Assembly: GCA_025057345.1 (NCBI GenBank)
Contig: JANWXX010000004.1
Coordinates: forward strand, 1 to 32,494
DNA from: Polyangiaceae bacterium
Lineage (GTDB): Bacteria > Myxococcota_A > Polyangia > Polyangiales > Polyangiaceae
DNA: 32,494 bases
Direction of reading: 5' to 3'
This document shows, one piece after another, positions 2,537 through 18,182 of this stretch (the first letter of the stretch is position 1; each line of letters starts with the position of its first letter). The notes under the pieces are model-generated. The model ran no database searches. It was given only the letters and a program-made list of their open reading frames with translations, and was not told the DNA's origin. The position numbers were made by a program, and so were the translations under genes.

Positions 2537-2539
2537 TCC

Positions 2540-2569
2540 CCCCCTCCCCGGCTCGAAAGGGGGAGGGGG
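2540..2569. repeat. GC-rich perfect hairpin, REP-like intergenic element
   Basis: CCCCCTCCCC (2540-2549) pairs fully with GGGGAGGGGG (2560-2569) around a 10-nt loop, just after the stop of the AAA gene. The following GGTCTGGGGAGTGAGG resembles the flank of the widespread CCCTC/GAGGG intergenic hairpin repeats. There is no T-tract, so it is not a classic intrinsic terminator. Confidence 0.6.
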
Positions 2570-2602
2570 TCTGGGGAGTGAGGTGTGGTATAGCCCGCCG
2601 TG

Positions 2603-17141: not shown

Positions 17142-18182
17142 TCATCCTTGCTGAGGCAGCAAGCCTTGAGCTTCTCTCTCGGGCTTGTCATCTCCCCTCG
17201 CAGTGGCCCTGCGGAGCCGATCCAGGACGGCTTCCCACGCGGGACCACTCCCGGGCGCCTCGATCACAAGGGCGTCAAATCGCGCATCCAGTTCATGCAG
17301 AGCTGCATACAGCCCCCGAGCATAGCCTTCTGGGTCCGCAGGGAGCAAGAGCCCCTCCCCCCACGATAGGCTTACCCCCAACACCCCCACCCGAAGCCCA
17401 TGCGCTGAGAGACGTGCTCGCTCTGCCTCGATCTGTTCCGGTAGCGCCAGCACCGCGATGGACCGTGGAGCATAGTGGCGCTCCAGAAGCCCTGGCGATC
17501 GCAGTGGTCCCCCTTCTGCCCCTCCCTCTCCCAGCCTCGGAGGGAAGGGAGGGAACGAGTAAGATGGCTTCAGTACAGCTTCGATAGCCTCACGAGAAAT
17601 GCTCCCTGGGCGCAGTACCACGGGTACCTCCCCGGTGATGTCCAGCACCGTGGACTCAATGCCTATCGTGCAGGGCCCTCCATCCAGAATCAGCCCGATG
17701 CGGTTCCCCAAGGCAGTCTGCACGTGAGCTGCGGTTGTCGGTGATACCTCCGAGGATCGGTTAGCGCTGGGTGCGGCCACCGGCTTACCAAGGGCGGCGA
17801 GAAGCGCCCGGGCGACCGGGTGTGCCGGAGAGCGCAATGCCACCGTTGGCCCGCCTGCAGTTACCTCATCGGGAACTATCGTGGAACGAGGGAGTACCAG
17901 GGTCAGCGGCCCAGGCCAGAAGGCATTGGCCAGGTGCTGCGCCAGGGGGGGAATGGAGGTGACCAGCGGAGCCGCCTCGTCGAGGCCGAGGACATGTACG
18001 ATGATCGGGTTGGAGGGAGGTCGCCCCTTGACCTCGAAGATGGTGCGGACCGCAGCAGGATTGAGGGCAAGAGCACCGAGCCCATAAACGGTTTCGGTAG
18101 GGAAAGCGGCCAGCTCCCCCCCAGCGAGAGCAGCAGTGACTTGGCGGATCCCCTCGTCGGTAGGGGCGAGGATGCGGGCCAC
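17142..18182 (-). CDS. L-threonylcarbamoyladenylate synthase, Sua5 type
   Basis: 346 aa. Makes threonylcarbamoyl-AMP for the t6A37 tRNA modification. The YrdC domain (residues 1-205) shows FPTETVYGLG, KGRPPSNPIIVHV and a SANRSSEVSP motif; the Sua5 domain (about 230-345) begins SPGLLERHYAPRS. Between them is a segment reading KPSYSFPPFPPRLGEGGAEG that looks like a translated intergenic repeat, not a normal linker. It starts at GTG 18180-18182, 7 bp after the E2 stop, with no clear Shine-Dalgarno. It is part of the lipA-to-MFS operon. Both domains are complete, so it should be functional. Confidence 0.94.
   Translation of the reverse strand: MARILAPTDEGIRQVTAALAGGELAAFPTETVYGLGALALNPAAVRTIFEVKGRPPSNPIIVHVLGLDEAAPLVTSIPPLAQHLANAFWPGPLTLVLPRSTIVPDEVTAGGPTVALRSPAHPVARALLAALGKPVAAPSANRSSEVSPTTAAHVQTALGNRIGLILDGGPCTIGIESTVLDITGEVPVVLRPGSISREAIEAVLKPSYSFPPFPPRLGEGGAEGGPLRSPGLLERHYAPRSIAVLALPEQIEAERARLSAHGLRVGVLGVSLSWGEGLLLPADPEGYARGLYAALHELDARFDALVIEAPGSGPAWEAVLDRLRRATARGDDKPEREAQGLLPQQG
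17520..17553 (-). repeat. GC-rich hairpin repeat embedded in sua5
   Basis: CCCTCCCTCTCCC (17520-17532) pairs with GGGAAGGGAGGG (17542-17553) with one bulge, around a 9-nt loop. It resembles REP-like CCCTC/GAGGG hairpins such as the one at 2540-2569. It is in frame and encodes the odd PPFPPRLGEGG linker of the Sua5 protein. Confidence 0.55.

Follow-up and report, generated by a model that had tools for sequence, protein, structure and literature searches.

The window, by which we mean the whole 32,494-nucleotide stretch of DNA that was analysed, lies on contig C444 of a Polyangiaceae genome of 5.0 Mb. Another genome of the same family, G019, has a sua5 locus that shares 84-89% DNA identity with Sorangium cellulosum So ce26, in keeping with this placement. 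Its sua5 gene (17142..18182, minus strand) is intact and encodes a threonylcarbamoyl-AMP synthase of 346 amino acids. The protein scores 188 bits against TIGR00057 (cutoff 123) and matches PF01300 at residues 18-193 (E 1.4e-56) and PF03481 at residues 195-328 (E 6.8e-18), so that both the YrdC/TsaC-like domain and the C-terminal SUA5 domain of a two-domain Sua5 are present. Between the two domains we found an imperfect hairpin, CCCTCCCTTCCC / GGGAGAGGGAGGG with a 9-nt loop, which folds at 17520..17553 on the minus strand. This is the sense strand of sua5, and the hairpin codes for the interdomain linker of the protein, as an earlier note on this DNA had described.

The hairpin stretch corresponds to approximately residues 205-225 of Sua5 and is flanked by the last helix of the YrdC domain (197-207) and by the conserved motif SPGLLERHYAP. 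The PG(M) and HY motifs of the interdomain loop are present (P230 G231, H236 Y237), and the third residue of the PG(M) motif is leucine in place of methionine. Among 53 sequences G231, H236 and Y237 are invariant and P230 is nearly invariant. An AlphaFold2 model based on a 53-row alignment has a mean pLDDT of 92.4; in it the linker stretch is predicted to be without secondary structure, and the block 211-220 has a pLDDT of 57. The available text of PMC10321239 describes the Sua5 interdomain loop as a flexible segment, some 20 residues long, in which the PGM and HY motifs are conserved, and proposes that it gates the active site. The loop studied here resembles the one described there in being flexible and in carrying the PG and HY motifs; it differs in the long Pro/Gly-rich stretch ahead of PG-HY and in having Leu rather than Met.

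The linker peptide had been called unlike the family, and this holds for its length. The linker has 36 residues against a median of 29, and 36 or more were found in 4 of the 96 linkers measured, this one included (14 of 110 were unmeasurable with the motif rule). It does not hold for its character, as the linker is hypervariable across all orthologues aligned and the linker of the sister G001, the sole same-genus genome compared, is equally rich in Pro and Gly (0.33 of residues, 0.31 in the own linker).

The hairpin had also been thought notable in itself, an idea that did not survive the folding controls. It folds at about -22 kcal/mol. Its z against shuffles is -1.15, and 27 of 200 shuffles fold equally well. 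The window holds 17 strand-sites at -23.5 kcal/mol per 40 nt, the sua5 hairpin and 16 others. When the linker was recoded synonymously 5000 times, 46% of the versions folded at least as well, because proline codons (CCN) followed by glycine codons (GGN) pair in any case. Since shuffles, other sites of the window and recodings all match it, we dropped the strength of the hairpin as evidence for a REP origin.

These results also bear on the possibility that the sua5 coding sequence contains a functional mRNA hairpin or G-quadruplex that is kept for regulation, with the peptide incidental. Such an element would fit a hairpin of this energy and the four G-runs in canonical G-quadruplex pattern that overlap its 3' arm (17509..17532, minus strand). 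However, the G-run pattern is one of 14 in the window, the folding energy per nucleotide of the linker ranks only 62nd among 96 orthologues, synonymous recodings fold as well, and a search of the window against Rfam returned zero matches. We consider a regulatory element in the mRNA improbable.

A BLAST search of the own genome with the 63-nt hairpin segment found the segment itself and nothing else (next best E = 0.275). Extending the search to 98 genomes of the family and 183 of the order yielded matches at the level of chance and no convincing relative; the best match other than self, in one genome of the 183, spanned 27 nt at E = 0.0007. A simple hairpin pattern occurred 21 times in the own genome and 18 times in the reversed control, showing no excess, and a search of the own genome with the linker peptide returned the peptide itself and one chance match (E = 1.92). 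The flat pattern counts at first pointed away from a REP, a reading that was overturned once the flanks of the sister's hairpins revealed a longer common unit. The hairpins of the sister run on into a common tail, GGGGGTGAGGTCTC, and a similar tail is found on some hairpins of the own genome, including one at 2542-2567 of the window. In some relatives the same kind of pattern is strongly enriched over the reversed control (127 vs 0, 96 vs 3, 86 vs 0). Six family members (G087, G015, G066, G080, G063 and G069) carry 48-127 CCCTC...GAGGG palindromes with 0-3 in the reversed control, and a 22-mer, CCCTCCCCATCGATGGGGAGGG, is identical in G066 and the sister.

We found that a REP-like family is present in both the own genome and the sister. 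About 50 nt long and rich in GC, the element forms a stem-loop that runs roughly CCTCCCCCCTCTGCCCGCC-N-GGGAGAGGGGG-NN-TGGGGGGTGAGGT, with arms CCCCCCTCTGCCC / GGGAGAGGGGG and a conserved tail, GGGGGGTGAGGT (GTGAGGT), after the 3' arm. In the orientation of the sua5 stretch it has one stop-free frame, which reads PPSARLGEGGWGGEV. Two models were used: R2, a covariance model seeded by the sister's hairpins and built from 16 copies (alignment A1) of three genomes, four of them from the own genome, and R3, built from 13 own-genome copies with sua5 excluded. In the own genome at least 20 R2 matches, on 15 contigs, score no less than 22.8 bits, and at least 30 score no less than 15.4 bits. The genome-wide R2 list comes from a first look that scored 150 of 6428 candidates, and the sua5 site is absent from it. 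Clear copies score 22.8-59.4 bits. The genome does contain REP-like copies that the family model detects, although BLAST with the sua5 hairpin had found only that hairpin itself. Of 20 distinct hairpins of the CCCTCYC...GRGAGGG type in the own genome, 6 overlap an R2 match.

One clear copy of the family to which the putative sua5 copy would belong lies in the window itself, in intergenic DNA at 2538..2587 on the plus strand (R2 43.3 bits, at 2540-2586; R3 43.6 bits). This copy sits in a terminator-like position, directly after the stop codon of the ORF 968-2536. Its presence on the same contig, along with the intact 346-residue frame and its two domains, argues against an assembly or binning artefact of this metagenome-assembled contig as the source of the linker stretch; a genome in 720 contigs, 84% complete and 3% contaminated, leaves some room for such an error, which we regard as highly improbable. 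In unrelated genomes R2 gave 17-26 bits at L107 3090-3135 and L112 5508-5573 (Thermoflexus) and at L163 2423-2450 (Planctomycetota). These hairpins may be similar repeats of other origin or cases of convergence.

The sua5 linker scores 16.2 bits with R3, over the full model length (1-51), and 15.6 bits with R2, at 17509-17554 on the minus strand. The putative decayed, in-frame copy spans 17501..17558 (minus strand) and codes for linker residues of approximately 209-228 (FPPFPPRLGEGGAEGGPLR). When the window was ranked with filters off, both models placed the intergenic REP first and the sua5 linker second. The R3 score is above the background of the own-genome sample and below the clear copies (22.8 bits or more): with filters off, the best R3 background score was 14.8 bits in 99 kb of the own genome and 13.2 bits in the sua5 loci of the family (90 kb). 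In 91 kb of the sister genome R3 found one site at 18.0 bits, and R2 with default filters found three distinct sites above 15.6 bits in 441 kb of unrelated genomes. A site of about 16 bits in every few hundred kb is thus at background level, and the score by itself is suggestive but not decisive.

Matched controls are stronger evidence for the likeness than the bit score. Ten of the 13 non-REP hairpins of the CCCTCYC...GRGAGGG type in the own genome served as controls (the other three were without a locus), and R3 gave at most 11.4 bits at these hairpins. Compared with the 20 own copies, the sua5 stretch has a mean similarity of 28.2; in 2000 codon-order shuffles p is 0.0005 for this mean and 0.004 for the maximum. 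By the same measure the four weakest accepted copies reach 25.8-28.4 and the ten matched hairpins, on both strands, no more than 22.9. A profile HMM gave the linker 9.8-10.0 bits. In the shuffle controls 10.0 bits was attained 16 times in 3000 dinucleotide shuffles and 5 times in 3000 codon-order shuffles. Since 519 of 3000 synonymous recodings score as high, the signal lies in the residue order of the peptide, with no extra DNA identity. The DNA identity of the linker to the family is low, and the conserved GGGGGGTGAGGT / GTGAGGT tail is missing from the sua5 copy, where AGAAGGGGGACCACTG is found instead.

The peptide encoded by the linker has the orientation and frame of the copies that lie within other genes (PPSARLGEGG... 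in sua5, PPFPPRLGEGG... in those copies). In this orientation the in-frame peptides are SSPPPSARLGEEGWGGEV on contig C482, SPPSARQGEGGRRGEVAL on C554 and IPPSARLGEGVEGELSL on C28, and the sua5 peptide is FPPFPPRLGEGGAEGGPL. Permutation tests of the sua5 peptide against these three gave p = 0.014, 0.0026 and 0.0002, respectively.

By our reading, half of the 20 clear copies are in-frame parts of long ORFs: two each on C28 and C482, one each on C353, C713 and C554, and three on C328. One further copy (C482:851) forms the end of an ORF, and the remaining nine lie between genes or at their edges. The earlier note's proposal that repeats become protein is therefore borne out by half of the strongest copies and is probably right at the level of the genome; for sua5 itself it is moderately likely. 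Family matches support six of the ten, namely those in the DrmMI / type IIG ORFs of C28 and C482, the topoisomerase III of C353 and a FabA-like gene of C713. The ORFs of C554 and C328 had zero family matches and are weaker cases. Codon-score framing (23 of 32 rows, with sua5 outside these) showed that the two sides of the C554 copy, and of two copies out of the three on C328, disagree in their best frame. The three C328 copies (L231, 339-532) are REP-like, in frame and in tandem, and follow a lipobox-like sequence in a lipoprotein-like ORF.

The best case is the C482 ORF, in which a single DrmMI match pairs residues 2-695 with profile positions 671-1301 (631 positions). About 63 residues are in excess of the profile, and the match crosses both internal REPs. 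The C28 ORF encodes a DrmMI-like protein with two REPs, and a PDB search with it returned zero matches. The REPs lie at 65-201 of L230 (C28) and at 851-899, 2439-2493 and 2813-2857 of L229 (C482). Both ORFs run off their contig ends and cover complementary parts of the DrmMI profile; together they hold four in-frame REPs and one at an ORF end. C28 and C482 may be one gene broken in assembly, in which case the DrmMI-like methylase may hold four internal copies. The topoisomerase III ORF of C353 contains one clear REP and one weak one.

The C713 gene calls for a reservation. Its "copy", which scores 22.8 bits, is part of a Pro/Ala linker, and the linker of the sister is of approximately equal length without the repeat. 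We rejected this gene as a clean empty-site insertion, as the linkers of its orthologues are Pro/Ala-rich and the sister's is about as long. The stretch is REP-like and length-neutral, which indicates that Pro-rich linkers can mimic the element. We kept it among the ten in-frame copies on the understanding that its comparison speaks against an insertion.

The same observation favours the main alternative for sua5, in which a Pro/Gly linker of low complexity changed by plain drift and slippage with no mobile element involved. In that case CCN codons followed by GGN codons would give a hairpin automatically, and DNA rich in GC and G-runs would favour small indels. Drift would also account for a hairpin no stronger than shuffles or synonymous recodings, for the zero DNA relatives that BLAST detects in the genome, and for the sister's linker, which is Pro/Gly-rich too and folds more stably per nucleotide. 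It does not readily account for a base order that fits the REP family beyond same-codon shuffles (p 0.0005-0.004) and beyond ten other hairpins, nor for the agreement in frame and orientation with in-gene copies elsewhere. Drift from a shared linker also gains little from the alignment of PRLGEGGA with the sister's PGLGPGAA, for which p is only 0.12. For the variable part of the two linkers, permutation gave p = 0.12 in local and 0.36 in global alignment.

The sister linker is 9 residues (27 nt) shorter and has no such hairpin. An orthologue with the same linker peptide and no hairpin in its DNA, which by the earlier note would refute the insertion, was not seen in the one same-genus genome compared: the peptide of the hairpin-free sister matches only at the level of chance. 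Relative to the sister, the own linker has gained some half of a unit, whereas a whole REP unit of about 50 nt would add 15-17 residues. The G+C content is 59% in a sample of the own genome, 70% in a sample of the same-genus sister and 63% in the window, a large gap within one genus.

Weighing these tests together with the prior of 6 in 20 hairpins, we think it moderately likely that the sua5 interdomain linker holds what is left of a copy, now decayed, of the REP-like element native to this genome, and we rate drift and slippage as possible but rather less probable. We infer common descent behind the resemblance and an insertion event with a neutral outcome. A REP copy would have landed in an ancestor of sua5 just ahead of the SPGxxxxHYAP gate loop, would have kept the reading frame and would afterwards have drifted. 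We propose that the loop, being flexible and of variable length, tolerated the insertion. The insertion of a REP-like element that the earlier note had suggested is thus likely: the family exists and the linker resembles it beyond controls, but the copy is decayed, its tail is gone and the net gain falls short of a whole unit.

Beyond sua5, we tentatively suggest, at a confidence somewhat short of even, that this lineage has a REP population that is protein-coding. Its palindrome would be stop-free in either orientation and would have been fixed repeatedly, with the frame kept, in loops and in the linkers between domains, making this selfish DNA repeat a standing supplier of Pro/Gly-rich linkers to the DrmMI-like protein, topoisomerase III, a lipoprotein-like ORF and Sua5, an enzyme of t6A synthesis.

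REPs within genes are already known. The available text of PMC3733652 describes REPs that encode amino acids in unrelated proteins of several species, including Opitutus terrae, and that text and the available part of PMC10969869 describe the RPEs of Rickettsia, palindromes found in frame in genes for unrelated proteins, with a tolerant host protein. The Polyangiaceae family described here is a new one. Like the GTAG- and CGTC-tagged intragenic REPs as presented in PMC3733652, it consists of short dispersed stem-loops, some wholly within ORFs, that are translated, singly or paired, in unrelated proteins. Unlike them, it has the consensus GTGAGGT, which is neither tag, and its host is a member of the Polyangiaceae; in addition, decay has taken the sua5 copy much further from the consensus of its family. 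As described for RPEs, the family inserts in frame in conserved genes (C482, C28, C353), and for sua5 this is only probable. With about 50 nt, the unit described here is shorter than the approximately 150 bp given for RPEs in the review PMC10969869; the phylum is another one, and roughly half of the clear copies fall between genes or at their edges. In the open-access literature searched, coverage of which is incomplete, REPs within genes of Myxococcota were not reported.

If the proposed reading is true, a repeat that has decayed within a gene can escape BLAST and simple hairpin counts, both of which were negative here, and become visible only with a model of its family. Comparative genomics can test the reading, since in-gene copies should have orthologues that lack them. 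It would, if true, provide a well-populated case, outside Rickettsiales, of short palindromic repeats becoming protein.
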